From: a virus
Length of the DNA stretch: 42,314 nt
Strand: one strand, 5' to 3'
IMG/VR virus record: IMGVR_UViG_3300008050_000102
Coordinates: 1-42,314 of that record
This document shows, one piece after another, positions 1,742-32,474 of this stretch. The notes under the pieces are model-generated. The model ran no database searches, was not told where the DNA came from, and saw only the letters and a program-made list of their open reading frames with translations. The translations under genes and the position numbers were made by a program. Numbering within the stretch: the stretch's first letter is position 1; every line of letters begins with the position of its first letter.

Positions 1742-2179
1742 TTATCGTTTTACTTTTTCTATAGTTCTCCCCGCGAAGTATGCACCGAAGGCGGTCATCA
1801 TTAATATCTGTAGCAAATCTACATATGAATCCTTTACAGTAAAGGGCCAGCCATCGATAGAATCTGCAACCATAGTCACCATAAACATGAACATCAAGGC
1901 AATAAGTGTCAGTGGTCGTATCAGCTTTGCGAGCTTTACATCACCCCCCATATCTGCTTTCCAGCGTTCTGTAACGTTCTCCTGGAAGCGAACCTCAGCA
2001 TCTATCATACGTTGAGCTTCTTCAGAGTCAACGCTGTCGTCTTTGTCTATTAAGTTCTTTACAACACCTAAAGCCCCACTGTCTGGGAGAAGGTCTCCTA
2101 CAACGCTGAGTACACTTGGTGCTTTTTCAGACAACCAAGATCCGAGTTTAGTGTCTTTTATTTTTTTCTTTTTATCCAT
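1742..2179 (-). CDS. Holin-like protein, 3TM gene-transfer-release holin type
   Basis: The 145-aa product has a basic N-terminus (MDKKKKIKDTK), a weakly hydrophobic segment at about residues 22-44, a conserved-looking middle with the pattern ENVTERWKADM, then strong membrane segments at about 83-108 (RPLTLIALMFMFMV) and 121-141. This order, especially the E-x-x-x-RW-x-x-D stretch just before an RPL-headed membrane helix, matches what I know of the 3TM holin family (GTA holin type), whose members form membrane lesions that let endolysin out. Its start overlaps the stop of the 1736-aa gene as TAATG. No endolysin is identifiable in the window. The family call is from pattern memory and has not been confirmed by a search. 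Confidence 0.72.
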   Translation of the reverse strand: MDKKKKIKDTKLGSWLSEKAPSVLSVVGDLLPDSGALGVVKNLIDKDDSVDSEEAQRMIDAEVRFQENVTERWKADMGGDVKLAKLIRPLTLIALMFMFMVTMVADSIDGWPFTVKDSYVDLLQILMMTAFGAYFAGRTIEKVKR

Positions 2180-5100
2180 TATTCTTCAGGTTTAGGGAAA
2201 AGTTTATAATATTCTTTCATAACTTCCATCATTATCTTAATTTCCCCTTCTTTTATGTTCTTAATCTTACTTTCAAGGCTATTCCATGCGTCAATATCAG
2301 CTTTAGATGATCCGACCCAGGCGTTTATATCTCTTTGTTTAGTTACTAAAAGCTTTCTAGTTTCATTAAGCTTTGAGAGAGGTTCAGACACAGAGCTGAA
2401 AACTTCCTTCATTGCTAAAGCTCCGTTGTATCTCTTTTGATCCTCTTCATTAAGATCATCTCTTGAAGGCATAGCCTCGTCCTTCATTCTTTTTAGCTCC
2501 TGTGGGTCACTAAATTCAGCTATATATGCGCTAACTACTTCTTGTGCGTCATAATATTTCCCGTAAGTAGCGTATGGGAAATCCTTCCCGTACCATCTTC
2601 TTACTACAGGCCACTTCTCAAAAGCAAACCCATCATCAGGAGCCCCTCCTTGGACTGCAGGGGTTAGGCCTTGATTTTCATCAGGGTTTATAGGTGGGCT
2701 AGTTGGATAAGCATTCAACGATTTTGTTCTTATATCAAAAGCAGCATCGGTTCCTCGGTCTAGGAATGTTGTGATTCCTCCACCATAAGAATTTATAATA
2801 TGCTCTACAAGGTCAGGATTAATATCTATATCTCCAGATACATTTTTACTTCCTCCCGTAGATCTATTAATAAGGTCTGTTGCATTTCTTAAGGCTATCC
2901 CAGAAGTGTACCATTGAGAAGATCTAGAAACCCCATCCTTTTCCTCAGGGACTATTTCATTACCAAAAGCATCTACGTTCTGCCAACTTTGTATCATAGG
3001 TTTTAGAGCATCAGGAGTTGCAATATCTTGAGTCAACTTCCCAAGTGCGCTAACAGGGTCTTTAGATTTAGAAGCTTCCTTCTCTGTCCCTGAAAAATAC
3101 ACAGGAGAGAAATTAGTGATTACCGATTTAGCAGCAAAAAGAGCTCCTTCTTCTGCTGACCTTTGCCCATCCATAACTTCCGCACCAGAAAGGCCCATAG
3201 TATAAGCTGACCCAAATCCATAAACTAAAGGAATTAAAACCCTTTCTCCTGTTTTGCTGCCAGGAATCATAAAAATCATGTTTCTTTCCTTTACCGAGTC
3301 TGGTATTTTATCGTAAAAACTTACTCCGTCTTTATCTACTTCAGACACGCTCATATTAAACTCAGTAACTAACCCTCCAAACAGAGCTATTCCTCCTAGC
3401 ATCTTTTGGGCTGTTGTAAGTCTTTGAAAAACATTACGTGAGTTTCCTTCTGCGTCTACTTTTGGCTTTGTTTGAACGGCAGTTTTTACCGTTTTATCTA
3501 TACCCTGAACACCCGCATTAAAAAAGTATTTCAATCCGCTAATAGTAGCAGTTTGCGATCCATTTCTATTGAAGTCTATAGTAGCATTCTTAGACATAGC
3601 CGCAGCATAGGCTGGTTCAATACCTTGTGAACGAGCGGCTTTATATACTTGGAATCTATACGTAGACTCGAATACGTTATTAAAGGACTCGATTAACCCA
3701 AAAGAATTATCAAACAACCATCGCCCTCCTTTTTGAGCCTTAGAACCTGGAGAGACCTCACGACGAAGGGAGGCTTGGATGTCTAAGAGAGGTTGTTGCA
3801 TAGCCCAACCAGTTGGACCCCCGTGGGCCTTCCATTCTTGATATAAAGCGTTTATATGAGTGTCAGCTCCTGCTCCAGACATTTGGAATTCATTAGCCGT
3901 TATTGTTCTTATAGTTGACGCCCATTCCGCAGATCCTGGCATTGACATTTCTTTTAAAAGCTGCCCTTGTTTTACGGGCTGCCCATTACCGTTCCTCATA
4001 CCATATCCAAACGCAGCTTCGGCGGCGTTAAGAGCATTTAGCACGGAAGCTGGAGCGTCTCTAGGAGCGTTAGCAGCCCAAAAAGTAGGATTATAACTTG
4101 TGAACATTGACGGAAGCCTTCTCATAAACCTCAAGGTAGGCTCTATAGCTCTAATAAAAGTTTCAGACTTAGGAGCAGGCATAGTTTTTAACGACTTTGC
4201 GTATTCTGGATTTGCGAAATTGATGTATTTTTTTTGACCATTAACATAAGTTGTTACTGTACCTGGATCTAAAGAGTTTCCTGTTTCTGAGATAGAATAA
4301 ACATCTGGGTTAGGGTTCTTTAAAAACAGCTCATGTAGCGAGTTTAAAGCAAGATTTCTTTGACCTGCAATATGAACATTAGTGTTGTCGAATAATACTC
4401 TGGAGAATATGTTTGAGGCTTCATCGCTTCTACCTTCAGCCCTTTTCATATAACTACCTTCTAAGCTTAGATCCCTCGGTATACCAGGGAAAAGGTTCCT
4501 TTTTGATGCGGTTATACCCCCAGCAACGTCGTCAACTGATTGTCCGTGAAGAGGAACATAATCGGTAAATTGATTAGACCAAATAGAAAAAGTCTCACTA
4601 TCTATCAATCCATACTCTACTAGCGCAGCTCTGGTTTCGTCCTGTATAGATCTTACTCCACCCACGATTTTATCCAAAGAAGCCTTTACTTCAGGGGATA
4701 AACTTTCTAAAAAAGCTTGAGCTTTTTCTGTGCTAAGTCCACTACCGTTACCTTCTTCTATATATTCTCTTAGCTTTACCATCTCTGCAATCTCTTTATT
4801 AGTTGGCTGAGATTTAGCTTCCAATTTATTAAGCTTTTTAATATCAAGTTTTAAAACATGAGCGTTTCTTTCTGGTGCGTGTAGAGAATATAAGTATCTG
4901 TCTAACAAACCTAAAGCGTCCCTTGAATAACCTTTAGGTAAAGCATCAAGGACCTCTGTGGTGAGGGTCTTTTGTAAAGAAGTTAGCTGGTCAACAACAC
5001 CTCCTGGAGCGGCTCTTTTATCACTAGACTCTTGAATCCTAAACTTAGTTTTAGAATCCAGTAGCTTGAGCGCAATTTCAGCGTCTTGAGATAAAGGAAC

Positions 5101-7389
5101 TCTTAATCCTTGCTCACCCCCTTTTCTCGCCTTCATAATACTCCCCTGTAAAGCAACTAAATTTTCATGACGTGATACCCATTCTGTGTACCACCACGAA
5201 GACATCGCAGGGTCAAAAGAGAGAGGTACAGGGTTGTCTATAGTAGGGTCGTCTATAGGCCTATAAACGTCTCCATCAAGCACTTCTTTAGGTATTATAG
5301 GAGAGCTATCAACTTCATATACTGATTCAATATTACGTCTAGTTTGTATTATTTCGGCCATTTCAGCATCTAAAGCTTTAGCAACAGGAGAAGTAGGGTC
5401 GTCTAAGGCTGTTCTTTCTGCAAACTTCTTGTTGAATTCTTGATGAAGATTAACAATGTCGCTATAATCCTCAGGGTTCATATTAGTATAAAACTCCTCA
5501 TCTGCTAGATTGCTTGCACCTACTTTGTTTTCAATATCAACAAGCCTCCGCTCAGCACTAAAAGCTTCTTGTGTATTTGGCTTCTCTCTTAAAACTCTTA
5601 AAAGCTCAGTTCTTTCTTGTTGAATCTTTATGTTCCCTCCATTTCTACCAACTCTATCTCTTGTTAAAGCTGTGGTATTAGTGTTTGAAATTCTATTTAT
5701 TCCAGATCCTATAATAGCTCCTGCAGGACCAATACTAACTCCCGCCGATATAGAGACATCTAATCCTATTTGCCTTACGTCAGCCCAGGAATATTCCTGA
5801 CCCGTTCTCTCCATTATACTAACATAGTTAGACATCGCGGCCATACCTCCAGTTACCCCAGTAACAGGCACAGAATACCCTGCGTTAGCCATATGATACT
5901 TCCACCAATCAGAAGCTGCGGCTCCTGGAGCACCACCTTTAACGCCTCTTAAAGCTCTTAAAAAGAATAGAGAGCTAGCTCCTGTAGCGACCATATCAGC
6001 ACCGAAAACTGAGGATAAATGGCCTTGTCTAGCAGACTCATTGAAGCCTTCTGTATACTCTGACATCAGCTCAGGATTACCTCCTGTAGCAAGCATCATT
6101 TCGCTATGACTAATAGTATCCCCGTTCTTAGTATATGTCTTAAACATATCATGACCTCTAGTTCGTGCGGCCTCTTGTATAGTGGAAAGAGTCGCTCCTT
6201 CAACAGAAATTAATCCTGTTGTTGCCCAAAACCCTAACCCTAGTCCTCCTGTAGCTGTGGCTGCAGGGATCATAACTGACATAGTAGGAGCAGCTTCAGC
6301 GGCAAATCCTGCTATTTGTTTTATACCGTTTATAAAGTCGTTATTAGAAAAAGACTCGCCTACTCCACTTTGAAATTGTAAAGTTTCTTCTCTTATTTTT
6401 TCTGCTTTTTCTCTTCTCTCTGAAACATTTTTAGCGCTTCCTCCAAAAAAATTATATACAGAGTTAATAAGATCTATACCTGCTGCTTCAAATTTGTCAG
6501 CTAAATAACCTGAGAACCGTGGTGCAACTCCAACTACATCACCGCTTTTCCAAGTTTCAAACCCGTCAAATTGTAAAAAGGGTGTATTCCCAACTGTCCC
6601 ATCTCCCGACAAATCAATCATGCTTCTGTAATTCTCCAGCATGTACTGCTCCATATACTCTAAAGCCTTTTCATCCCCCTTTATATTGTCAGGCATGTTA
6701 TTTCTTAAGGCATTAGCGGTAGAGTCAAGCAATGCTTGATTAAGAAACTTCTTAGCTGCTTTAGTTCTATCTTGCTCTATATCCTCAGGAGATCTTTGTA
6801 TTGGAGGAAGGCTTACACCTCCTACACCGCCCTGAGATCCATAAGCATAGCTGTCTATCGTAGTTGCTACACCGCCTAAATGATCTTCTATGAACTGCTC
6901 GTTTTGAATAAGCTCAGCAGCTAAAGCGTCTACACCTTTAGGAACAGAAGTAAACCAGCTTTCATTATTTGATAGAAAGCTTTGGTATACCTCAGCTATG
7001 TTAGGGAGGTTATATTGCTGAACAGTGTTCGCTAGTTCAAGAAACCCTGCTTTTTGATATCCATCATAATACTCTGGAGTAATATGTAAGGACTCTCTAT
7101 CTTCGGGAGAAGTTATATCCCATGTAGTGTTTGCTACAAGAGAAGCATCAGCTACAGGTCCAACCGAAGAAGTATCTGCTTGTCCGAGAAAAGGACTGAT
7201 ATTCGAAACAGAGGCCATATTCCCCGCCTCCGAACCTGAGGCCGAAGAGGATCCTTCGGTTTCGTCTTTTTTTTTTAAGTACTCTGTTGCGTCAATACCT
7301 TGAAAACGCAATCTAGATAAGATAGCGTCATCTGATACATTTTTAGCTCTTTCAGCAGCAATTAAAGCTTCTATTTCTTCTGGTTCCAT
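2179..7389 (-). CDS. Giant internal virion protein with LPD38-like region (large polyvalent protein)
   Basis: The product is 1736 aa. Residues 1-45 look like a small helical domain, followed by a Ser/Gly-rich linker and a long region of Gly/Ala-rich patches. Residues about 370-400 and 545-560 are hydrophobic enough to contact membrane. From about residue 840 to 960 is helical sequence including LIDSETFSIWSNQFTDYVPL. From about 1085 to 1320 the pattern is NPTFWAANAPRDAPASV, then an E-S-T-YRFQVYKAA stretch, then TIDFNRNGSQ and KYFFNAGVQG. I recognise this combination as LPD38-like (large polyvalent protein-associated domain), found in giant phage proteins that enter the cell with DNA. The C-terminal 300 residues are charged. 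It is likely packaged and ejected. No nuclease or polymerase motif is visible. The function is inferred. Confidence 0.7.
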   Translation of the reverse strand: MEPEEIEALIAAERAKNVSDDAILSRLRFQGIDATEYLKKKDETEGSSSASGSEAGNMASVSNISPFLGQADTSSVGPVADASLVANTTWDITSPEDRESLHITPEYYDGYQKAGFLELANTVQQYNLPNIAEVYQSFLSNNESWFTSVPKGVDALAAELIQNEQFIEDHLGGVATTIDSYAYGSQGGVGGVSLPPIQRSPEDIEQDRTKAAKKFLNQALLDSTANALRNNMPDNIKGDEKALEYMEQYMLENYRSMIDLSGDGTVGNTPFLQFDGFETWKSGDVVGVAPRFSGYLADKFEAAGIDLINSVYNFFGGSAKNVSERREKAEKIREETLQFQSGVGESFSNNDFINGIKQIAGFAAEAAPTMSVMIPAATATGGLGLGFWATTGLISVEGATLSTIQEAARTRGHDMFKTYTKNGDTISHSEMMLATGGNPELMSEYTEGFNESARQGHLSSVFGADMVATGASSLFFLRALRGVKGGAPGAAASDWWKYHMANAGYSVPVTGVTGGMAAMSNYVSIMERTGQEYSWADVRQIGLDVSISAGVSIGPAGAIIGSGINRISNTNTTALTRDRVGRNGGNIKIQQERTELLRVLREKPNTQEAFSAERRLVDIENKVGASNLADEEFYTNMNPEDYSDIVNLHQEFNKKFAERTALDDPTSPVAKALDAEMAEIIQTRRNIESVYEVDSSPIIPKEVLDGDVYRPIDDPTIDNPVPLSFDPAMSSWWYTEWVSRHENLVALQGSIMKARKGGEQGLRVPLSQDAEIALKLLDSKTKFRIQESSDKRAAPGGVVDQLTSLQKTLTTEVLDALPKGYSRDALGLLDRYLYSLHAPERNAHVLKLDIKKLNKLEAKSQPTNKEIAEMVKLREYIEEGNGSGLSTEKAQAFLESLSPEVKASLDKIVGGVRSIQDETRAALVEYGLIDSETFSIWSNQFTDYVPLHGQSVDDVAGGITASKRNLFPGIPRDLSLEGSYMKRAEGRSDEASNIFSRVLFDNTNVHIAGQRNLALNSLHELFLKNPNPDVYSISETGNSLDPGTVTTYVNGQKKYINFANPEYAKSLKTMPAPKSETFIRAIEPTLRFMRRLPSMFTSYNPTFWAANAPRDAPASVLNALNAAEAAFGYGMRNGNGQPVKQGQLLKEMSMPGSAEWASTIRTITANEFQMSGAGADTHINALYQEWKAHGGPTGWAMQQPLLDIQASLRREVSPGSKAQKGGRWLFDNSFGLIESFNNVFESTYRFQVYKAARSQGIEPAYAAAMSKNATIDFNRNGSQTATISGLKYFFNAGVQGIDKTVKTAVQTKPKVDAEGNSRNVFQRLTTAQKMLGGIALFGGLVTEFNMSVSEVDKDGVSFYDKIPDSVKERNMIFMIPGSKTGERVLIPLVYGFGSAYTMGLSGAEVMDGQRSAEEGALFAAKSVITNFSPVYFSGTEKEASKSKDPVSALGKLTQDIATPDALKPMIQSWQNVDAFGNEIVPEEKDGVSRSSQWYTSGIALRNATDLINRSTGGSKNVSGDIDINPDLVEHIINSYGGGITTFLDRGTDAAFDIRTKSLNAYPTSPPINPDENQGLTPAVQGGAPDDGFAFEKWPVVRRWYGKDFPYATYGKYYDAQEVVSAYIAEFSDPQELKRMKDEAMPSRDDLNEEDQKRYNGALAMKEVFSSVSEPLSKLNETRKLLVTKQRDINAWVGSSKADIDAWNSLESKIKNIKEGEIKIMMEVMKEYYKLFPKPEE

Positions 7390-10497: not shown

Positions 10498-11508
10498 TTA
10501 CTGCTTAACTTCCCCACTATGACTGTAATCAGTTGTCTCGAACTCAACGTTTAAGGCGAACAACTCAAAATCAGCTGAACCGAGAGTCACTACAGCATCA
10601 GCATATTGACCTTTTGGTGAATCCCCATTAACAGAACTAGGAGTTATAGCGTAAAGATATTCATTCCCACCAGAGGCTACATATGATATATCACCCCCTG
10701 ATTGCTCTATAAGGAAGTACCCGTTCTTATAAAAAGGTGTTCCTAATTCTCCTGCAATAGAGAATAAGCTACCAAAAGACTGATAGTCCTCAAAAGATAT
10801 ATTAGGATCTGCAAAATTTGCATTAAGAGTTCCATCTGAGTAATAAGGATATAGAACTGATGTACCTGTAATATCAGAAGACTTTATAAGTTTAGCATCT
10901 GTAGATGTCGGTAGAAATCCGCCCTGTACGTTCACTCTAAAGGCCCATAAGGTACCTCCCCCTTCGTAAACAAACGGAGTGCCGTCAGAGGCCGTTAAAA
11001 GGCCTTCTACGGTGTTTGCTTCTACAACTTCCTCTATCCGACCTATAACTTTTACGTTACTTGCAGTAACTTTTTGTTCTCGCCCTATATGCCCATACAA
11101 GATACCGCCTTTTTCTTCTAGCGGTCCAATCTCAGTAGTTTTAAGTTGTTCGGGTTGAGAGGAGTTATTTACTTTAAAGATATTGTCCCCTGACATATTA
11201 GTAGTTCCTTCAAGGGAGAAGGTCTTATATATTTTATTAGAAGAAACTTTAGGGGAGGCAGCTCCGAAACCTTTTGAAGCGTGAGCGTTAAAGGTGACGG
11301 CTATACTTGACTGATAAGACTGATTGTAAAAATTGTTGTTAGTATCCCCAATACCATGAGCCCATAAGGTGTTAGACGATGACACAGATTCTTTCGGTGA
11401 GGAGAAAAGCATTTTATCAAGGTAGGCGTAGCAGTTACTTAAAAAAGAATACCTTGTTTTCCAAGAGTGTTTTTTATTATCAAAGGCTATAGTTGCGTTG
11501 CTATTCAT
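10498..11508 (-). CDS. C-terminal companion of the giant tail (stabilization/muzzle-type) protein, 336 aa
   Basis: The protein opens with TIAFDNKKHSWKTRYSFL, then a hydrophobic-glycine stretch with TLWAHGIGDTNNNFYNQSY and a beta-rich remainder. In crAss-like and related phages, the large tail stabilization protein normally runs from a GGYDP-x-x-DEYL segment directly into a TIAFDE-x-x-x-W-x-x-FYSF segment, followed by a hexapeptide on the gift of an LYxHN element. Here the first part is in the 2256-aa gene (residue 1490 onward) and the second part opens this separate gene. The start ATG overlaps the end of the 2256-aa gene by 8 bases (ATGAATAG), so the two are likely coupled. I see no typical slippery site. 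I infer that both products assemble together at the tail. The alternative is an independent tail-tip protein. Confidence 0.65.
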   Translation of the reverse strand: MNSNATIAFDNKKHSWKTRYSFLSNCYAYLDKMLFSSPKESVSSSNTLWAHGIGDTNNNFYNQSYQSSIAVTFNAHASKGFGAASPKVSSNKIYKTFSLEGTTNMSGDNIFKVNNSSQPEQLKTTEIGPLEEKGGILYGHIGREQKVTASNVKVIGRIEEVVEANTVEGLLTASDGTPFVYEGGGTLWAFRVNVQGGFLPTSTDAKLIKSSDITGTSVLYPYYSDGTLNANFADPNISFEDYQSFGSLFSIAGELGTPFYKNGYFLIEQSGGDISYVASGGNEYLYAITPSSVNGDSPKGQYADAVVTLGSADFELFALNVEFETTDYSHSGEVKQ

Positions 11509-14500
11509 TTTGAGTTTTATATTTTACTAGGTAGTGAGACCCACTCCCATCTGGGTATTCTACTTCCACTAAACTTCCATCAGGGTTTGTCTCGTAAGTA
11601 TAAATTTTTCCTTCATTGGTTACATCCGTTCCAAATTGCGTAAGAAGAGCAAGCAAATCGGCTGTGCCTACATTCGCATCTATATTAAAATCAAAAGCAA
11701 TACGTTGGAATTGCACACTGTCTAGAGAGGCTGGATATTGAATCTGAAAACCACCTTCCCAGTTCCCTGTCCCATAACTAAGCCTTTCAAATTCTTTCTT
11801 TACTCTATATAACTCATCCATAGTAATTCCATTTGCTTGGATATACTCAGTAAGATTAGCCGCTGAAGTAGTTGTGATTTCACCATCAACAACAAGAAGG
11901 TCTAAGATGTTTTGAGATAGGTAGCTAGGAGGAAAGTCTTCAGGTACCCCGTAAATGTTATTATTTTCTAAGTTTGCCTGGATAGTATCTATAGCGTTTT
12001 TAACCCCATTTAAACCCTCTTCAACAAGGCTTACAATATCAAGAGCAGATACAGTCCTGTTAGTAACTTCCTCATCTCCAGTAGAATAAGAGCCTTCAAA
12101 TCCAAACGATGGGGAGGTAGAATGTTCTGAGAAAAGCTGCTGGAATGCCTTTAGGTTTACAAGAGCATTAGATACAGCAACTATAAGAGGGAAGTATCTA
12201 TTTACAGCCTCATTCTCATTATTTTGATTTAACAGAATTTGAGTCGAAGAATCATAAGGGGCGTATCCTGCAATTAATAAAATTTCGTGGAGCTGGGTAA
12301 GCATCTCCATGTAATTACCGATACGGCCCTGTAAACTCTGATTAGTGGCAACGGAAATGCTTATACCAGATGTAAGCTCTGGAATTACACCATCATTAAA
12401 ATCGGTTATTGATTGCGCATTTGGGAATCCATTCATCGCAAAGAATCCATTGCTGACAGCTGCATTCCAGGTAGTAACTAATTCATCTTGTAAAGTTGTT
12501 AAGGATAAATTTGCAGCGTTAGTGAGAGCATTGGCAGTAGCGACGTCGCTTTGAGCATTTGTGAGCTTATCTTGTATGTGGGTAATATAAGGGGCAATTC
12601 CAAAATAAGAATCTTGAGCAGTTTCTGTAGTAATGGCACCCATCTCCCAACCATAATCACCCTCATTTATAACAGCAAGAAGAGAATCTATAAAATTAGC
12701 AAGATCAGTATTAACTACTGTTAAAGCATTAATATAATCTGTAAAAGCTGGCTGAATTTTACTTGTAATACTTTCCTCTGTAAGAACTTCGTCGCTCTGT
12801 AAAATGCCGTCTCCGTCTGTATCTAATCCATCAAGACCTGACCCCTCCATGAAGGTTTTTAGATGATCAGGTAAATCCTCAGGAGGTAATATAAGTCCAT
12901 CAGGACCCGTTAAAGAGGTCATAGAAAGTAAAACGTTTCTAAGTTGTTGAGCTAAACTGCTCTTTGTTTCGTCTAAATTGTTTACAGCTGTGATGACCTG
13001 ATTAGCAAAAGAATTCGTTCCCCCTTCACCAAGAAGATCACTTATAGAAAGTGAGAGATTATAAATCGAGGCCATCCAGGAGTTATCCTGCACATCCACC
13101 CCTGTTACCGAGATAGAACTCCCATCACTTAACGTATGATTAGTAGCAGTAAGACCAGGGATAAGATTGGTTATTTCTGTTGTAGCAGTTGTTATTGCAA
13201 TAAGAGAATCTTGTAAGCCTAGTTCGTCTAAAACTTCTTCAAAAGAAGAAACTAAAGACAAGAAGGAATTTGTAGAACCTATAAAGCTATCGTAAGTTAA
13301 CCCGATTTTTTCTAACCCATAGATTAAATCGTCTTCTAATCCATTCACCACAGCTTCTTGTTCGGCTATAAGCCCTGTTATCACATTCGTATATTGAGCA
13401 TAACTAAGGACTTGAACAGTCTCTCCATTAGGTAGTAGGACGTTTGTAATCACTGCACCATACAAATCTTCATTTGCAAAATCTGCTAAAAGGTCTGAAA
13501 AGGTAGTTTCTAAATCACTTAAAAGGTTTCCAGCATCTGCAAGATCTGATGTTAGTCCCGCATTAAGGCCTTCTAATTCTTCTATCTCGTCACTTGCATT
13601 AGCGAGATCGCTTTGAAGAAGAGCTACAGCAACATCGTTATTGCCATCAACAGCATCCTCATATATCACGTCTTCTATTACACCTTCGAATTCTGCAATA
13701 GAGGGAAGTTCTGGCGGTATATCTGCATCATCAGCTATCACATATGTAATATTATCGTTAATGACAGAGATAAGATACTCGTCTTTAAGAGGGTCATACC
13801 CTCCAACAACTCTTACTGGTCCTTGAGACTCGACGTTAGCCATAGCTCTAGAGAAGAGATCGTAGAAATAGGTTTTCATTCCTAATTCTGAAACTACAGC
13901 AATCCCTTGATTAGGGGAGTACATATACACCTCTTTATTTTTCTTGCTTGCGAAATATACTGAAGTTCCTGCTCTAACTACGCTTTCTGGATTTGTATCA
14001 CACCCATAGTTTCCAGCATAAAATTTCTGAGTACCTAGAACTTTACCTGAAGCTATTAAACTTGTAGAGCCTCCCGCAGTAGCAAGGATATTCCTCTCTA
14101 CAGGTATGGCGCTTACTTTGTTTTCTTGAATTACAAGAACAGAATCATACTCATTAAGTAAAGACATAATAGAACCGTACTCGTTAGGTAGGTCTTTATA
14201 TGGTAAAACAGAAGGGTTAAATCTAGTAAAGCTATTAAATCTAGAAGAATAGTTATTTCTTTCGGAGAAAGTTACCGAAGCCTTATTTCTAGTTTCTGTA
14301 GCCTCGGAAAATATAATCTTTGGCTTCCCGTAGCTTTTACTGTTAGCCCCTGGAAAAAGGTCTATAAAAGAGTCGGTCTCTACAAAGTGGTTTCTAAATC
14401 TTGGGTGCTTACTATCGGTATCTAAAAGAGGGAGAAAAGAGTCACCGTCAAATCTAGGGGTATTAAGAGGAACCCTTCTCCAATAAACATCTCCATCTTC

Positions 14501-17500
14501 GATAATAATAGGGTTTGTCTGGTGGGACAAAGTTCCTAAAGCTGAGCTAGAAATATTATATTTCGGGCCTGTTTCGTGATATACTCTGGAATCTATATCT
14601 TGAATTTTTTTAGGTGAATATATTTCAACTAAAGTCCTATTGTTCCAGTAATTATAGAGGGTAGTCCCATTAAATTGACCGTTATCAAAAGACTCGTAGA
14701 TATCCCAGTAAGAAAAATTAACAGCTAAGGCATTATTCTTTAATACAAGAAACTCACCTACTTTAGAAGGGTGAACTCCACCTTCTTCATTTTCAACATG
14801 ATGGAAAAAATTTTCGGTAGTGCTAGAGGTCATAGTTTTAACTCCTAAAACTTCAAACTCATAGTTATGAGGGAATATTTCGGTTTCTCCATCTCCGCTT
14901 AAGTAAGATATAATCCTTAGTTTATCTCCTGGGGAATATGTATAAAGAGCTTTTCCCCCGTCTTTATTTACAGCTCCCCAAGCGTCTGAATACGAGACTT
15001 CGTTAACTCCCTGTAAGTTTGCAAGAGATACATATATAACACCACTCTCACTTTCTACAGAAACTTCATTGTCTGTAACGTTTACAAACGCTGGACCTGT
15101 AGTATATTGAATGAAATCCCCTATACTAGAGTTCCCACCATATACAATTTGATAAGAGCGAGCCCAAGAAGGAGGATCATGATTAAGCTGCATAGCTATT
15201 TGAACCCTACCTTTATTTCCCCCTCTAAGTGGCTCCATGTCTGAATATCCACCTACATATACGCTATCTAAAAAGTTTGCGTTCCCAGCCCTTCCTCTTT
15301 CATCATAATATACAATTCCAAAATCATGGGTGGCTGAAGTTTTAAAGCTTGCGTTTTGGTTTATAAGACCGCCGATAGAAACAAAAGAAGAAGAATATAA
15401 TATCTCAACCCAGCTATGTTGTTTTTCAATACTGAGGTCATAATAACTAAAAGCTTCATCAAAAACAGGATCAAGATATGTTCCTGAGGATTTATAAAAA
15501 GCCCCTAACATTTTTTGCTCATGGTTTTGCATCTCCCCCATAAATGCAGCGCCACCGTTTATAGGTTTTAATGACTCTCCATCGACAAATGAGAGTTTAA
15601 ATTTCTCGGAAGTAGATGGGAGAAGCAAGTCGCCTGTTACATCTGCGAAAAGAGCTGTATTAAAATCAACAGTCTCTTGTGCGTTACGTAAAATTTTTGG
15701 GGGTTCATTTGAAAGAGAAGAATTAGCTCGAAGGTAACCTACAGCCTTCTGCCGATTTTGCTCTGTATTGTGATCATAAGCATGGATATGCCCTGAAGTA
15801 CTTTGAAGTATGTAAGCTTGAAAATTAATCTCACTATGATTTATAAAATACCAGTTTTTGCGGAGGGCAGAGGGATCGGACCACCCAGAATCAGGACCTG
15901 GAATTGACCTATAAGTTTCGGCTAAGTCACCGTCAATGTCATTTGGGTGATATACCTCCCAATGAGAGAGATCTAAGTCATATAAAGTCTTTTGGCCGCC
16001 GCCAATAGATGTAGAAGGGTTAGTTTTTCTTTCAAGAACGGGTATACATGTTCTGATTTCAATATTTTCTAAGCTTTGCACCTCTAAGGCTAAATAAGCG
16101 TCGTGATAGAAGCTATCCTCTTGAGGATATCGCGCATCCATAGTGGTATTCATGCTAACTAATCCAATTTTTACATCAGCTTTTGTTACAGCGATGTAGC
16201 CTACTGGAGAGTTGTGATGAAAGTCATTAAAAAAATCGTCAGTAGGATCAGGAGGACCATCCAAGACTTGCGGTACTTGACCTCCAAGAGCAGACACTAA
16301 TTCATGCTTGCCTGATTCGGTATAACTCCAAGTCCAAGTTTGAGGCCCTTCACCAGCGGAAGGTCCGTTTAAGTCAAAACTATATTCAGAGGTTTTTTTA
16401 GGTATAGTTATCGCTGAGGCAAAAGGAGTCACAACCTCATTTACTTCAACCTCAGGCATTTCTCCTGAATCTGTCAAAAAATGAATTATAGCTTTTTTAA
16501 TGTTATCTCTTGCTAGTTCACCAGTAAGAACAGTATAGTTAGTTTTAAACCTAAGGTTAAAATCGAGGGATCCACCTTTTATGATAAGAGGCGCTGCAGC
16601 AGAAGTGCCGTGAACTACAGGAGTAATTTCAGGATTATCGGGATCTTCAGGGTTAAAAGAGACCCATTCATTATATAAAGCTGAATCTACTGCTGCAACG
16701 GATTCATCTACGTGAAAGCCAACACCTCTGTTTGCACCAAACAAGACATCGCCGCTTTCAACAGACATACCCTCAGTATGAACTTGATATCCAGTTACAT
16801 TTGCTTCTTCTTCAGTATCAAAAGATGACTCCCCATCAATCCAAACAGCATCTGCAGAACCCACTTGTTTATTGCCGTGGAAAGAATTTGTATAGTCGTA
16901 TACAGTATAGTTATTATCTGGGTTAACAGCCCATTGCACATTTATAACAGAACCTATAGGAAGTTCCGCCCAGGGGACACCTCCTGTATCAATCTTATAC
17001 CCAGCAACTTTCTGTTCTGCAAAAGCAGCTTCGGACCCGCCAACACTTTTTAAAGGTTGCATTAAAAAAGGTCGCACTTTAATAGTTAGGTCTGCGGCGC
17101 TTTGAAGAGCTTCTTTATATACAGGCACTCCTGTAGCATTACAATCTACACTGTCGAAGCCTTCTAGGTAATTAGCATACATCAACCTATTAGAAACAAT
17201 TGCTTGAGCTCTAGCCTTTTTAGGTAACCCTGAAAAATGCATAGCAGTTTCTTCTTCCGAGATAGGATATAAAACTCTGTCGTTATAGAATAAATAATTT
17301 GTAGCTTCGGTAGGAGCTATCTCTTCAATGACTTTAAACCCCCCAGCATTTCCAAAACGAACTAAGAGACGAATTTTTTCTACCTCTTTAGTGATATTCT
17401 TAATCTCAGGTGCTGCAGCAGATTGTTTAGGGACGGTTAATAAACACACATTAACCCCAAGGCTAGCGACTGTATTCACTCCCTGCTGTAAATATTCTTT

Positions 17501-18271
17501 AGGTATAGCTAACTTAGAGTATGTGGATATAGGGCTGTCTACATCTCCTTTATATAAGAACTGATATGCAAACTGCATACCTGGAACTTTTTCAAAGTTA
17601 GATACTAGACGATCAGAATTTGTGCTAAATTCAAAAGTAATAGGCTCTAAAGGTGTTCTTGGACAGGCTTTTATTAAGTCATTAACGCTATATAAATCGT
17701 ATCCATCAATATCGCTATTAGCCATAGCTTTGAAAACGTCTAGCTTTTTAGGCTCATTAATGTTGTCCGTAAAATATAAAACTACGCTTTTAGCCACTTC
17801 ATATAGGGCGCCTGTAGAGTCTTCGTCAGAGGTGTCTTTATGTCCTATGTGAACTACATCCCCATCAACAAACCCTTGAGCAGGAAAAGCAAATCTAGAA
17901 GAAGTATAAACTTTAACATAGCTGTCAGCTGAAGAGCCTGGAAGTATACCGTCTCGGTCATAAGCCCAAACACCCATTTCATCAGGGTTTTCAGCCCACA
18001 CAAAGAAGAAGATAAGGCCTAAAACATCATCCGTAACAGAACCTATAATTCTAGAAGTAGAGTCAAGCATAGAGCCTTCTACAGCCTTGTTACCAGCGGT
18101 TGGTTTTAACACTCCAAAATCTCCACCTGAAGTTAAATCTCCTGTGCTAGCGCTAGATTTATGATCGTCTCCAAATGTTATATTTAACGCATCAGCCATA
18201 TCCGTATTTGGACGGTGCCTTGCATCTACAGAAGTGTTTAACCTCTGAGGTGTTACTTTATCTATAGCCAT
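11501..18271 (-). CDS. Giant tail protein (stabilization/muzzle-like) with large C-terminal helical insertion
   Basis: The product is 2256 aa, far longer than the roughly 800-1500 aa I expect for the family. The N-terminus (RLNTSVDARHRPNTDMADAL) has the N-D-x-E/D-A-x-N layout of phage tail stabilization proteins. Residues about 60-1480 are beta-rich, tyrosine- and serine-rich repeats. The GGYDPLKDEYLISV motif is at 1490-1503. From about 1515 to 2230 the sequence changes to Leu/Asn/Ser-rich helices with coiled-coil potential, a canonical EF-hand loop (1817-1828) and a dockerin-like loop (2194-2205). The normal continuation of the beta domain is missing and seems to be in the next gene. The start lies immediately after the 291-aa ring gene (TAATG). 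Its position after two ring-like proteins supports placing it at the base of a short tail. Confidence 0.7.
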   Translation of the reverse strand: MAIDKVTPQRLNTSVDARHRPNTDMADALNITFGDDHKSSASTGDLTSGGDFGVLKPTAGNKAVEGSMLDSTSRIIGSVTDDVLGLIFFFVWAENPDEMGVWAYDRDGILPGSSADSYVKVYTSSRFAFPAQGFVDGDVVHIGHKDTSDEDSTGALYEVAKSVVLYFTDNINEPKKLDVFKAMANSDIDGYDLYSVNDLIKACPRTPLEPITFEFSTNSDRLVSNFEKVPGMQFAYQFLYKGDVDSPISTYSKLAIPKEYLQQGVNTVASLGVNVCLLTVPKQSAAAPEIKNITKEVEKIRLLVRFGNAGGFKVIEEIAPTEATNYLFYNDRVLYPISEEETAMHFSGLPKKARAQAIVSNRLMYANYLEGFDSVDCNATGVPVYKEALQSAADLTIKVRPFLMQPLKSVGGSEAAFAEQKVAGYKIDTGGVPWAELPIGSVINVQWAVNPDNNYTVYDYTNSFHGNKQVGSADAVWIDGESSFDTEEEANVTGYQVHTEGMSVESGDVLFGANRGVGFHVDESVAAVDSALYNEWVSFNPEDPDNPEITPVVHGTSAAAPLIIKGGSLDFNLRFKTNYTVLTGELARDNIKKAIIHFLTDSGEMPEVEVNEVVTPFASAITIPKKTSEYSFDLNGPSAGEGPQTWTWSYTESGKHELVSALGGQVPQVLDGPPDPTDDFFNDFHHNSPVGYIAVTKADVKIGLVSMNTTMDARYPQEDSFYHDAYLALEVQSLENIEIRTCIPVLERKTNPSTSIGGGQKTLYDLDLSHWEVYHPNDIDGDLAETYRSIPGPDSGWSDPSALRKNWYFINHSEINFQAYILQSTSGHIHAYDHNTEQNRQKAVGYLRANSSLSNEPPKILRNAQETVDFNTALFADVTGDLLLPSTSEKFKLSFVDGESLKPINGGAAFMGEMQNHEQKMLGAFYKSSGTYLDPVFDEAFSYYDLSIEKQHSWVEILYSSSFVSIGGLINQNASFKTSATHDFGIVYYDERGRAGNANFLDSVYVGGYSDMEPLRGGNKGRVQIAMQLNHDPPSWARSYQIVYGGNSSIGDFIQYTTGPAFVNVTDNEVSVESESGVIYVSLANLQGVNEVSYSDAWGAVNKDGGKALYTYSPGDKLRIISYLSGDGETEIFPHNYEFEVLGVKTMTSSTTENFFHHVENEEGGVHPSKVGEFLVLKNNALAVNFSYWDIYESFDNGQFNGTTLYNYWNNRTLVEIYSPKKIQDIDSRVYHETGPKYNISSSALGTLSHQTNPIIIEDGDVYWRRVPLNTPRFDGDSFLPLLDTDSKHPRFRNHFVETDSFIDLFPGANSKSYGKPKIIFSEATETRNKASVTFSERNNYSSRFNSFTRFNPSVLPYKDLPNEYGSIMSLLNEYDSVLVIQENKVSAIPVERNILATAGGSTSLIASGKVLGTQKFYAGNYGCDTNPESVVRAGTSVYFASKKNKEVYMYSPNQGIAVVSELGMKTYFYDLFSRAMANVESQGPVRVVGGYDPLKDEYLISVINDNITYVIADDADIPPELPSIAEFEGVIEDVIYEDAVDGNNDVAVALLQSDLANASDEIEELEGLNAGLTSDLADAGNLLSDLETTFSDLLADFANEDLYGAVITNVLLPNGETVQVLSYAQYTNVITGLIAEQEAVVNGLEDDLIYGLEKIGLTYDSFIGSTNSFLSLVSSFEEVLDELGLQDSLIAITTATTEITNLIPGLTATNHTLSDGSSISVTGVDVQDNSWMASIYNLSLSISDLLGEGGTNSFANQVITAVNNLDETKSSLAQQLRNVLLSMTSLTGPDGLILPPEDLPDHLKTFMEGSGLDGLDTDGDGILQSDEVLTEESITSKIQPAFTDYINALTVVNTDLANFIDSLLAVINEGDYGWEMGAITTETAQDSYFGIAPYITHIQDKLTNAQSDVATANALTNAANLSLTTLQDELVTTWNAAVSNGFFAMNGFPNAQSITDFNDGVIPELTSGISISVATNQSLQGRIGNYMEMLTQLHEILLIAGYAPYDSSTQILLNQNNENEAVNRYFPLIVAVSNALVNLKAFQQLFSEHSTSPSFGFEGSYSTGDEEVTNRTVSALDIVSLVEEGLNGVKNAIDTIQANLENNNIYGVPEDFPPSYLSQNILDLLVVDGEITTTSAANLTEYIQANGITMDELYRVKKEFERLSYGTGNWEGGFQIQYPASLDSVQFQRIAFDFNIDANVGTADLLALLTQFGTDVTNEGKIYTYETNPDGSLVEVEYPDGSGSHYLVKYKTQNE
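11657..11692 (-). other. Dockerin-like calcium loop coding segment in the giant tail protein
   Basis: Residues 2194-2205 read DFNIDANVGTAD, followed by LLALLTQFG. Aspartate or asparagine at loop positions 1, 3, 5, 7 and 12 and glycine at 9, followed by a leucine-rich helix, is the pattern of one half of a type I dockerin. Calcium binding is inferred from the pattern. Confidence 0.6.
12788..12823 (-). other. Canonical EF-hand loop coding segment in the giant tail protein
   Basis: Residues 1817-1828 read DTDGDGILQSDE, with acidic ligands at positions 1, 3, 5 and 12, glycine at 6 and a hydrophobic residue at 8. This is an exact fit to the 12-residue EF-hand loop. It sits inside the inserted helical region. 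Confidence 0.65.
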
Positions 18272-19146
18272 TAGTACTTAGGAGCTTGCATGAAGTTCTT
18301 ACGAAGTACTTTTAAAGCTTCGTTTTTAGTAAAGTTTCCTAAACGAGCTTTAGCTTTTCTTCGCTCGTTATAGTATTCCGCTCTAGCTCTAGACTTCTCT
18401 CCTCCTGGAACGGTAGACTTTCTTTCACATAATTTATAATAGATGTAACTACGTATAGCTTCTTCAGCATATATATGTATAACAGGGTTAGTAGATCTAG
18501 CCTCGTCAGCTATATACTCTAAAACTATCTCTGAAGTAGAATTACCAGCGTCTATTTCTAATCTGTTTTGGTCTAAGTTAACTCTATACGATCCTGGAGC
18601 TTTCGCTCCTCCAGAGCCATAAAGCCTTCCTAACCCCCCTTGGAACATAAAGTTCTCAAAGACGTAAGAATCATTGTTAGAGCTAGTTGCTGATTTAGCG
18701 TTATCCCTGTCTAAGATTAGATTACTGTCGATATCTAAAGGCCCACTTGCACTATCGGTAGTTGAAATCGTGTCGTCTACATCTGGAGAATCAACACCTT
18801 CTGCAGTTGAATCTTGTAAGATCTGTCTAGAGTAGTTAATGTTTTTGTTTTGGTTAAATACTCGAACTATCCCGTCCGAACCAATAATACCAACCTTTAT
18901 TAAATCTACATAATCATCAGGTAATATAACCGTGCCGTTGCTGTGTACATCTAGTTTAAGAGATTTTACTCTAGAGGTAACATCGAAACCGAATTCTCTT
19001 ATACCTCTTAAAGCAAAGTTCCTGATAGCAGAATCTGAAGCGTTAGCTGTATAGTCGTCCCCATCTAAAGTAATAATATAATCGTTAATGAGTTGTCGAA
19101 GGGTGATATAATTCATCCCGTTTTGTGAAATGTCTTCGTATGCCAT
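18271..19146 (-). CDS. Head-tail connector/ring protein, crAss-like pattern
   Basis: The product is 291 aa. Residues 74-90 (ILPDDYVDLIKVGIIG) and a C-terminal basic helix with the pattern YYNERRKAKARLGNFTKNEA match what I remember of a ring or connector family in crAss-like and other Bacteroidetes phages. In that family an LPDDYVDxxKV strand is followed far downstream by a YYNExRRAxARL helix. The gene starts at the stop of the 258-aa gene (TAATG) and ends at the start of the giant tail gene. That fits a chain of rings stacked between portal and tail. Residues 105-150 are Asp/Ser-rich and likely a surface loop. The exact ring number cannot be assigned. Confidence 0.65.
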   Translation of the reverse strand: MAYEDISQNGMNYITLRQLINDYIITLDGDDYTANASDSAIRNFALRGIREFGFDVTSRVKSLKLDVHSNGTVILPDDYVDLIKVGIIGSDGIVRVFNQNKNINYSRQILQDSTAEGVDSPDVDDTISTTDSASGPLDIDSNLILDRDNAKSATSSNNDSYVFENFMFQGGLGRLYGSGGAKAPGSYRVNLDQNRLEIDAGNSTSEIVLEYIADEARSTNPVIHIYAEEAIRSYIYYKLCERKSTVPGGEKSRARAEYYNERRKAKARLGNFTKNEALKVLRKNFMQAPKY

Positions 19147-19922
19147 TATTCAGCTTTTTCTTCATTAACAGTAATCGTAGTAAGAAAGGTATCCCGAAGT
19201 CTTATACCTATCATTTTAGCTATCTCGATAATAAGTTCGTTTGAGTAGTGAGGAGCTAATTCAAAATGTCTGGAGTTAGCCATATCTGCCATGTTTGTAG
19301 CCCCTATTTGTATGTAAGCAGGTGTTAGAGTGGTCTCTACACTTCCATTTACGTTTATAGACCCAGGGATCCTGTAATACTTTAAGACAACTTCGTTAAT
19401 GTCCGTAGGAAGGATCTCTATGTTGTGTGCTATAAGAGCAACAGGAAAAGCAGATGTTGGTGAAGACAAGTTACTATTCATTACTCTATCTGCATCTTCA
19501 GAATTATATATAAGCTCTAAAGGAGTTCTAACCCCAGTAACAGTATTATCTCTAATAGAAATAATCTTACCTAAGTTAGAAGGCTTCGCTAGAACAGAGA
19601 TCGAATCATCAGATGGATCGTACATCACCGCGTCATCATCCTCAATATAATCAATCTCCGCGCTGGCATCACCAAGTACAGTTTCATATATAAAGTAAGA
19701 CAAATCTTCTTCGACTTGCTTATATACCGACTTATCTCTAGAGTTGTCTACATTAGACCTTCTAAGCTTCTTAGAGAGCGCCAATTCAGTAAACATCTCA
19801 TTATATACGTTTTGCTGAGCTATAGCCGCAAAGGTGCTGAAAACCTCAGGAGTAACGAAGCCTTTCTGGTCTTTGTTGCAAAGATCTCTAACCGTGTTAT
19901 ATATATCTATCACGTTAATCAT
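19146..19922 (-). CDS. Ring/connector protein of the head-tail neck
   Basis: The product is 258 aa. Its N-terminus carries IDIYNTVRDLCNKDQKGFVT followed by PEVFSTFA (residues 5-32). I recognise this as the N-K-x-Q-x-G-x-x-T/S-P-x-x-F signature of neck proteins in Bacteroidetes phages, including crAss-like ones. The remainder is mixed alpha/beta and ends in a helical stretch. It is the first gene after a strong terminator at 19940-19966. A TATATTTG box lies 6 bases ahead of the start codon, so its transcript may be nearly leaderless. It overlaps the 291-aa ring gene at the stop codon. Together they probably form the adaptor between the portal and the giant tail protein. Confidence 0.65.
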   Translation of the reverse strand: MINVIDIYNTVRDLCNKDQKGFVTPEVFSTFAAIAQQNVYNEMFTELALSKKLRRSNVDNSRDKSVYKQVEEDLSYFIYETVLGDASAEIDYIEDDDAVMYDPSDDSISVLAKPSNLGKIISIRDNTVTGVRTPLELIYNSEDADRVMNSNLSSPTSAFPVALIAHNIEILPTDINEVVLKYYRIPGSINVNGSVETTLTPAYIQIGATNMADMANSRHFELAPHYSNELIIEIAKMIGIRLRDTFLTTITVNEEKAE

Positions 19923-26503: not shown

Positions 26504-28528
26504 TCAACTTGTTATAAGTTCTAATTCTGCATCGCTTAAAGCTTCTTTGTATACTCTTAGTGATTTTATTTTACCATAAAAAGGTGAACCAGTTCCACCA
26601 GAGTTAGCGTTTAATTCCGTCATAGTTCCCGCGGTTAGAGCTTCATCTCTTGAATCTACTGATCGCTCCACTCCGTTTATCCAAAGAGCAAACTCAGTGG
26701 CTTTGTATTTAAAAGCCATTTTGTTAAAATTAGTAATGTCAAGAGCAGTAGAATAAGTCAGATTTATATCGTTACCTGAATTGTTAGTATGAAATCCTCT
26801 CATTTCATCTGCGTCGTTATTGAACCCCCAGAATATACGATGCGTGGTGGAGGTGTCTGCAGGACTTAAACTAAATAACTCAAATGACCCTGAGTCACTT
26901 GTTAAAGCGGCTATATCAGCATACACGACCCCTGATACGCTATCAAAATCTGCTGCAACTCCAGCGCTATTACAAGTCTCCGTAGCTCGCGTTACTGCAA
27001 CCCCGTGTGTTGGGATATACGATGTTGGGTAAGCGCTTTCTACAAACTGAGCGCCCCAAACAAACACGGAGGTCGTAGCGCTTTCGTTTACTCTATCTAT
27101 ATCTACCTCGAAACTACCAGTAGTAGCATCTGTTGTAAAAGAAAACCCAATTCTATACCACCCGTTACCATAATCCTCTAATATCTCACTCGTCCTGGTC
27201 CCGCTATTATGCGAACTCGAATAAGCTAAAGAATTATCACTCCAGTCATAAGCTCTTCTAAATAAAGTGCCTGAGGTTCTGAATCCCACTGTAGTCCTTC
27301 CTCCATTTACTAAATCATCGTTTTTCACAAATACGCTAATAGAATAAACAGTGCTGTCACTAACAGATACGCTATTAACTTTTATTCTATCATTACCATC
27401 ATTCCCTTCTTTCGTTACTCTACTTGCGCCTTGAGTGCCTTTAGGACTTGTAGTTATATTATCGGTTACAGTTGTATTTGACGCGGTAAATTGAGTAAGT
27501 TTTTCGCTATATGGTATTAAATTTGTACTCGCTGGTTCTAAAAGCAAATGCCCTTCAGGATTGTTTAAGAAGTCTATTCGTGGGATGTCACCTACTATAT
27601 CTGATATTTGTTTAACTGAGATGCTGCTTATAGTTACATAGTCGGTTGTTGAAGCTGAAGCAGAGGCATCAAGATTAAAATACCAAGCGTCGTTATCCGC
27701 GTCCCTTGTATAATAAAACGTATGAGTTCCTACCCCTTGTTTGGGCAAAGCGTTATAAGTATCTCCATCATAATATTGTATAACTGTTCCCGCAGAAAAT
27801 GAAGTCGCTTGTATAGTGTACGTTACTTTATAAGACTTTCCATCTTCAGTAATTGAATTTTGCCTCAGTCGATTATATTGGTCTGTATTTATACTTGTTA
27901 TAGTAAGACCGTTCTCATTATAACTATCAATAGCTCCATCCATCGAAGCCCAATCCTCGCCGAGTTCTTCAACGGATACGTCTTTAACTGAACCAATAAA
28001 GGAATCCTCACTGTCAATTCTTATTCTATCCGTTGAAGTTGCAACTATGTACTCAGTTTTAATTCCTATCGTTGTATGCCCTTCTCCATTAACACTACCC
28101 ATTTTAAAAAGTACTCTGCCTCGAGTTAATGAAACAACCTCAAACGTTACTTTATAAGACTTACCTATAACTGGCAACCAAACACTTTGATTAATGTCAG
28201 CATTACTTGTTCCGTCTGCTTCTGCTACTCCTGAAACAGTATTAATATTCCAATTAGAATTTACATTCCAAGATGTAGCACTTGAAAAATCTCCATTTAC
28301 TACAAGCTCACTTCCCGTTGCACTAAAATCTCCATTCTGGACTAACTCAGTGGAAGCGTCTGACATCTGCTTGATTAACCCATCTCTACCCACGTATGTA
28401 GCGTCAGTACCTCTAGTTACAGTAAACTCTGTATTAAGGTATTTATCCCCAACTTGCTTATGAGCTAAGAGCTTACCTTCTTTGGTAGCCCAATTTCCAT
28501 CCCCTAATTTTACTACTGCTTCCGCCAT
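26504..28528 (-). CDS. Tail fibre/receptor-binding protein with CBM- and LamG-like modules
   Basis: The product is 674 aa. Residues 1-65 are a short unique N-terminus. Residues about 65-310 hold two carbohydrate-binding-module-like jelly rolls, the second ending in DYVTISSISVKQI. At about 326 comes HLLLEPASTNLIPYSE, which opens a module ending with GNGWYRIGFSFTTDAT and AYPTSYIPTHGVAVTRATET (to about 515). Residues about 520-670 are LamG-like, closing with KIKSLRVYKEALSDAELE. This layout is common in phage tail fibres that bind polysaccharide. The start overlaps the stop of the 960-aa fibre gene, whose C-terminal half has the same order. It probably binds host surface glycans. Confidence 0.75.
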   Translation of the reverse strand: MAEAVVKLGDGNWATKEGKLLAHKQVGDKYLNTEFTVTRGTDATYVGRDGLIKQMSDASTELVQNGDFSATGSELVVNGDFSSATSWNVNSNWNINTVSGVAEADGTSNADINQSVWLPVIGKSYKVTFEVVSLTRGRVLFKMGSVNGEGHTTIGIKTEYIVATSTDRIRIDSEDSFIGSVKDVSVEELGEDWASMDGAIDSYNENGLTITSINTDQYNRLRQNSITEDGKSYKVTYTIQATSFSAGTVIQYYDGDTYNALPKQGVGTHTFYYTRDADNDAWYFNLDASASASTTDYVTISSISVKQISDIVGDIPRIDFLNNPEGHLLLEPASTNLIPYSEKLTQFTASNTTVTDNITTSPKGTQGASRVTKEGNDGNDRIKVNSVSVSDSTVYSISVFVKNDDLVNGGRTTVGFRTSGTLFRRAYDWSDNSLAYSSSHNSGTRTSEILEDYGNGWYRIGFSFTTDATTGSFEVDIDRVNESATTSVFVWGAQFVESAYPTSYIPTHGVAVTRATETCNSAGVAADFDSVSGVVYADIAALTSDSGSFELFSLSPADTSTTHRIFWGFNNDADEMRGFHTNNSGNDINLTYSTALDITNFNKMAFKYKATEFALWINGVERSVDSRDEALTAGTMTELNANSGGTGSPFYGKIKSLRVYKEALSDAELELITS

Positions 28529-32288: not shown

Positions 32289-32474
32289 TTATTTATGACT
32301 GACTAATTTAAACTCCGCTGACTCTAGTGAACCTTTATGAGGTTCATACTCCCCTTTCATCAAAAAGTACCTTCCTCGATCTTCCATCCAATGGTAGCCC
32401 TTGGGAGGGGCTACTTTTATTTTCCTGTTAGAAACGTTAAGCTCCCCGCCTTTATTTTTCTTTATAACTTCCAT
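32289..32474 (-). CDS. Small conserved phage protein, 61 aa
   Basis: The product begins with a lysine-rich stretch and contains APPKGYHWMEDRGRYFLMKG and a final EPHKGSLESAEFKLVSHK. I recall the PPKGxHWM-x-x-x-x-x-YxLM-x-G ... PHxGAxxxAxF pattern from small proteins scattered through marine phage structural modules. That pattern supports this being a real gene, but its role is not known to me. The start ATG shares its A with the stop of the collagen-like fibre gene (TAATG at 32472-32476), so translation is coupled. Confidence 0.6.
   Translation of the reverse strand: MEVIKKNKGGELNVSNRKIKVAPPKGYHWMEDRGRYFLMKGEYEPHKGSLESAEFKLVSHK

Follow-up and report, generated by a model that had tools for sequence, protein, structure and literature searches.

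Two overlapping genes of a phage genome appear to encode one muzzle unit at the tail tip as two polypeptides, in which the freed C-terminus of the first chain displays swappable adhesin or trigger arms; we give this reading a probability of about 75%. The muzzle is the gate of crassvirus-like phages, which are among the commonest viruses of Bacteroidota, and the example from which it has been described has one chain. In the literature searched, which was mostly that available without subscription, we found no description of a two-chain muzzle. The window, i.e. the whole stretch of DNA analysed, is an IMG/VR virus record of 42,314 bp, in which the portal, terminase and other head genes lie on the same strand. 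Its relatives by tblastn are podoviruses of Flavobacteriia, and the host is probably a marine Bacteroidota bacterium.

The gene pair and the muzzle core

The muzzle gene of the window directly follows the tail ring and structural genes of the block running from MCP to tail. The two genes immediately upstream (18271–19922, minus strand; 291 and 258 aa) match phrog_13977 (E 2e-65) and phrog_14543 (E 4e-28) and are syntenic with pre-muzzle structural genes, in an order kept in elemo, phi38:1 and MW202828; they probably encode tail ring or adaptor proteins. Chain 1 is an ORF of 2256 aa (11501–18271, minus strand) and chain 2 one of 336 aa (10498–11508, minus strand). The 8-base overlap ATGAATAG (11501–11508, minus strand) runs from the first base of the chain 2 ATG to the last base of the chain 1 stop, and translation of chain 2 is probably coupled to that of chain 1. 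These coordinates, lengths and overlap are exactly those of the first-pass annotation of this DNA.

By sequence, chain 1 belongs to the muzzle (tail nozzle) proteins of crassvirus type. It matches phrog_14478, a virion structural protein family (E 9.6e-71), and tblastn matches it to the muzzles of elemo, phi38:1, phi19:3 and Gundel. Residues 1–1503 (13763–18271, minus strand) form a core that is colinear with one-chain muzzles, and with the muzzles of the elemo phages, phi38:1, phi13:2 and Gundel, up to GGYDPLKDEYLISV; this segment, previously placed at residue 1490, was found at residues 1490–1503 (13763–13804, minus strand). A Pfam search of chain 1 gave no match, PDB sequence searches with chain 1, chain 2 and two profiles returned nothing meaningful, and scanning IMG/VR with one protein at a time brought up no relative for either chain. 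Since the muzzle of the window is not a single polypeptide and is made up of two ORFs, it is a variant and not an ordinary crassvirus-type muzzle.

The second gene carries the missing C-terminus

According to profiles and predicted fold, the 336-aa product is the missing muzzle C-terminus, comprising closing propeller strands and the C-terminal, ring-joining domain. It aligns from first to last strand with the C-terminal domain of one-chain muzzles and matches phrog_18548 (E 6e-6). By alignments and profiles, its first two strands, TIAFDNKKHSWKTRYSF (11443–11493, minus strand), would continue the blade of chain 1, and the TIAFD-W-YSF continuation that had been read as opening this gene is indeed colinear with the C-termini of one-chain muzzles. 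The Pfam family PF25729 (crAss_MUZ_C) scores 15.1 bits in chain 2 of the window, under its cut-off of 27, and 70–74 bits (E 1e-20 and 1.5e-19) in standalone chain 2 relatives; it is likewise far above the cut-off in one-chain muzzles, including residues 1244–1333 of crAss001 gp44.

Because an earlier profile contained the window sequence itself, the chain 2 profiles were rebuilt without the window's clade. Chain 2 of the window was found by a profile of one-chain C-termini only (E 5e-16), by one from four isolate phages only (E 2e-6) and by one from the other split lineage only (E 4e-8), and all three also find crAss001 gp44. Direct tblastn of chain 2 on phages found nothing and, the PDB sequence searches giving nothing meaningful either, it is only by profiles and folds that this chain is linked to known muzzles. 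Residues 212–293 share about 80 residues (32%, E 1e-5) with residues 64–147 of a 485-aa tail-fibre-like product (32474–33931); since most other second chains are shorter than that of the window, this stretch may be an inserted module.

The cut point in a predicted propeller

The muzzle passages of Bayfield et al. (2023; PMC10172136) describe the phi-crAss001 protein (PDB 7QOK, 7QOL) as a hexamer in which the propeller has seven blades and the ring-joining domain resembles the T7 nozzle, and ascribe length variation to insertions in the crass and IG2 regions; a split at this turn is not mentioned in those passages. Two AlphaFold2 models were made, one of chain 2 of the window and one of L149, a one-chain relative with an insert of about 150 residues at the cut point. 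Given their low confidence (mean pLDDT 53.5 and 50.1), only ranks and ranges were used. The top PDB match of the chain 2 model is residues 1202–1371 of the phi-crAss001 muzzle gp44 (Foldseek probability 0.92; Z 7.8, rmsd 2.5 over 110). For the L149 model, the phi-crAss001 muzzle again ranks first (Z 12.1), followed by many beta-propellers that match model residues 172–520; as this span covers strands on both sides of the insert, both sides are predicted to lie in one propeller.

In gp44, the point equivalent to the cut lies at about 1198–1200, between NDVYFTYKD and HCLCYSELINQF. The cut is equated with a position at which gp44, a single chain of 1371 aa with the same C-terminal domain (PF25729) and the same predicted propeller, has a tight turn. 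The models predict that the cut lies in a turn inside the beta-propeller, and that chain 2 supplies the closing propeller strands and the ring-joining end; structural matches to nozzles suggest that gp44 ends within its ring-joining domain. The first-pass proposal that a module was attached at the split of a one-chain protein is borne out, and the sharing of one domain by the two products, on which it also depended, is predicted by the models. Nozzles of the T7 gp12, SU10, VP1 and P22 gp10 types are structural neighbours of the models, with a propeller and a ring-joining domain. They consist of one chain, and we know of no arm at this turn in any of them.

In the mechanism that we propose, most of the seven-bladed propeller would come from chain 1, together with the N-terminal and crass/IG-like parts; the last canonical strand of chain 1 would be DEYLISV, and the arm of 753 residues, with its pair of calcium loops, would follow. 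Chain 2 would restart at its own ATG and add the strands that come next in the same blade (TIAFD...WKTRYSF), and its C-terminal domain would join the muzzle to the tail rings. Assembly would occur in trans, with the muzzle in six copies. A cut at an exposed turn would leave chain 1 with a free C-terminus, so that large, swappable modules could be carried without threading back into the fold, and fission could thereby provide a terminus for swappable host-contact arms. It can be imagined further, at somewhat less than even odds, that the propeller gate is closed in trans, that the freed C-terminus is a repeated docking point and that the calcium-loop arms of the window's lineage sense seawater calcium and couple adsorption to opening.

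The split recurs in relatives

At least about 146 loci were gathered from IMG/VR with a degenerate DNA pattern for GGYDPxxDEY, a motif that selects a subset of muzzles, so that locus counts are not population frequencies, and they were sorted by a C-terminal-domain profile over all six frames. Among the matches listed, 70 loci are split, including the window, and 12 are one-chain, including the isolate record Panino; 19 are without chain 2, mostly with little sequence left, and 47 are cut off. In two loci, L043 and L091, the downstream sequence extends for 5 to 7.7 kb and no chain 2 or C-terminal domain was found in it. The two-chain tail had been presented as a departure from a one-chain norm; two genes there are, but the departure is not a lone one, as the C-terminal domain is a gene of its own in 70 of the 82 classifiable loci listed.

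The isolates phi13:2, phi19:3, phi18:3, phi46:3 and MW202828 are split, while phi38:1, elemo and Gundel have one chain. The second gene is independent in most of the relatives sampled, phi13:2, phi19:3 and phi18:3 among them, and the record of phi18:3, a distant relative, notes virion MS/MS evidence for gp114 and gp115, i.e. for each chain, which bears on their presence and not on a complex between them. The Cellulophaga phages phi18:3 (gp114/gp115), phi13:2 and phi19:3 (gp120/gp121), of the Pachyviridae, have a two-gene muzzle with the same cut turn. They differ from the window in a chain 1 tail that is Ig/cadherin-like by eye and in the junction of the two genes, which share a reading frame and are separated by 3 nt; these phages belong to a separate split lineage.

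An assembly error or a decaying gene could also give a split, and in one record, that of the Maribacter phage Panino, a plain frameshift does interrupt the muzzle gene at another site. Many independent contigs show the same split as the window, as do several Cellulophaga isolates, with both frames open and conserved; this recurrence excludes assembly error, and we consider error or decay together hardly credible. In Panino (L005, PP540027), the frameshift lies at about 8808, in an unrelated place, dividing the gene into CDS0075 and CDS0074, and is perhaps a sequencing error.

A frameshift or stop readthrough could join the two genes, making the main product one long chain with an internal insert. 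The overlap of the genes in the window fits this idea, as do the one-chain muzzles of L088, L149, L144, L031 and L055, where an in-frame insert occupies the cut point. However, the relative frame varies among abutting relatives (0, +1 and +2), tandem stops separate the genes in some relatives, and a complete chain 2 almost always starts at an ATG of its own close to the first strand. Moreover, the two genes overlap or abut in 24 of the 70 split loci listed and are up to 250 nt apart in 11, whereas in 35 more than 700 nt, mostly a whole gene, lie between the halves. The varying frames, tandem stops and intervening genes exclude frameshift or readthrough as the common mechanism, and the alternative raised in the first-pass annotation is thus abandoned as highly improbable for the window. 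A non-contiguous second gene, which the first-pass annotation had named as a refutation, does occur in relatives; it counts against a joined chain only and not against two chains.

The gaps of more than 700 nt between the muzzle halves usually contain at least one gene of a repeated, adhesin-like type. Such genes of 235–530 aa lie between chain 1 and chain 2 in L013, L016, L040, L046, L070 and others, and are built of the repeated motif YYFDGxxFxxATxxYTDxxLTTxAPDGYY...RQQ.

Chain 2 could instead be a free-standing tail protein, e.g. a ring or adaptor protein, with chain 1 closing the blade alone or with its new tail. The genes are non-adjacent in 35 of the 70 split loci listed, and chain 2 carries most of the ring-joining domain and could fold alone. 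Against this, the ATG of chain 2 in split loci lies mostly 0–13 residues before the TIAF/TLTY strand, so that the protein starts just before the first missing strands and not at the ring-joining domain, in keeping with a need for chain 2 to supply them; core and chain 2 evolve at similar rates; and no substitute strand was found in non-homologous tails. The constant start of chain 2 favours completion of the blade in trans, and we regard a free-standing chain 2 as unlikely, with roughly the odds of one throw of a die.

Lastly, a self-splicing intron or an intein might remove the insert and restore one chain, since crassviruses are known with many introns and inteins (PMC7886860). At the gathering score, Rfam finds no intron in the window and ten relatives, and a search of positions 11000–14500 at E ≤ 1 finds none either; intein searches gave no match, and the inserts are adhesin-like or calcium-loop modules. 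With no signal in the Rfam and intein searches, this explanation was set aside as having next to no likelihood.

The arm of chain 1

Under the two-chain reading, the residues that follow GGYDPLKDEYLISV in chain 1 are an attached module (residues 1504–2256; 11504–13762, minus strand), Leu/Asn-rich and acidic. A long extra stretch had been announced here and is present, at 753 residues instead of about 700, and it is unrelated to the sequence of one-chain relatives. Its composition differs from that of the core, as had been claimed: Leu is 11.8 vs 6.9%, Pro 2.9 vs 5.0% and Lys+Arg 2.5 vs 8.0%. The two reported calcium-loop motifs are also there, about 0.06 being expected by shuffling: a canonical EF-hand loop, DTDGDGILQSDE (residues 1817–1828; 12788–12823, minus strand), and, 377 residues away, a dockerin-like loop, DFNIDANVGTAD (residues 2194–2205; 11657–11692, minus strand). 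The arms of the window's clade contain 10 EF-hand or dockerin-type loops vs 0.45 expected, and none was found in the cores or in the arms of the other split lineage.

Residues ~2180–2220 of the window are homologous to the tails of L063, L141 and L027 (E about 1e-4), and the dockerin-like piece is common to all four tails. Against dockerin and EF-hand profiles, L141 reaches E 5e-5 to 2e-4 and L063 E 3e-5, all under the curated cut-offs. The arms of the clade have in common the loop consensus of such modules (PF00404, PF00036, NF041540), but the Pfam search of the window's tail gave no significant profile match and only the loops are recognisable. Dockerin type I consists of two calcium-loop repeats of ~22 residues. 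The tail of the window was rejected as a dockerin of this type: PF00404 has no match, and there is only one EF loop and one dockerin-like loop.

In relatives whose cores are 80–97% identical (mean 86), chain 2 is 83% and the arms are 68% identical, and the arm lengths of the same pairs differ by 106 aa on average. The chain 1 tails are the fast-evolving, modular part of the two-chain muzzle. Their fast divergence and gain of modules point indirectly to arms that most probably attach to the host surface and take part in triggering gate opening, and the loops suggest that they may depend on calcium. The phage also encodes separate lectin-tipped tail-fibre candidates, which counts against an adhesin role for the arm. 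Among the tail-fibre genes, two tandem paralogs of 674 and 960 aa (26504–28528 and 28528–31410, minus strand) are 32% identical over ~500 residues, and both end in a Laminin_G_3/ConA-like lectin domain.

A cut that recurs inside a structural domain suggests a way in which phages of this kind may convert a surface turn into a free end that carries variable modules for host contact. Annotators should be aware that the C-terminus of the muzzle is often encoded apart, by an unnamed 'structural protein' gene, which sometimes lies behind a gene for an adhesin.

History of the split

On an unrooted tree built from the 330 residues before the cut, 2–3 changes are needed to account for the split state, and a single clade of all split rows is rejected by the AU test (p 0.0002). 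These results point to at least two changes of state, i.e. to a split that arose at least twice if re-joining is set aside; as the tree is unrooted, re-fusion is a possible alternative history. The window groups with L053, L133, L063, L141 and L027 (99/97), next to one-chain muzzles that already have an insert at the cut point (L088, L149 and L144), which makes insertion first and fission second a plausible order in this lineage.

Elsewhere in the window, at the place of the giant virion-cargo gene of relatives, there is a 1736-aa protein (2179–7389, minus strand) with an LPD38 domain (PF18857).
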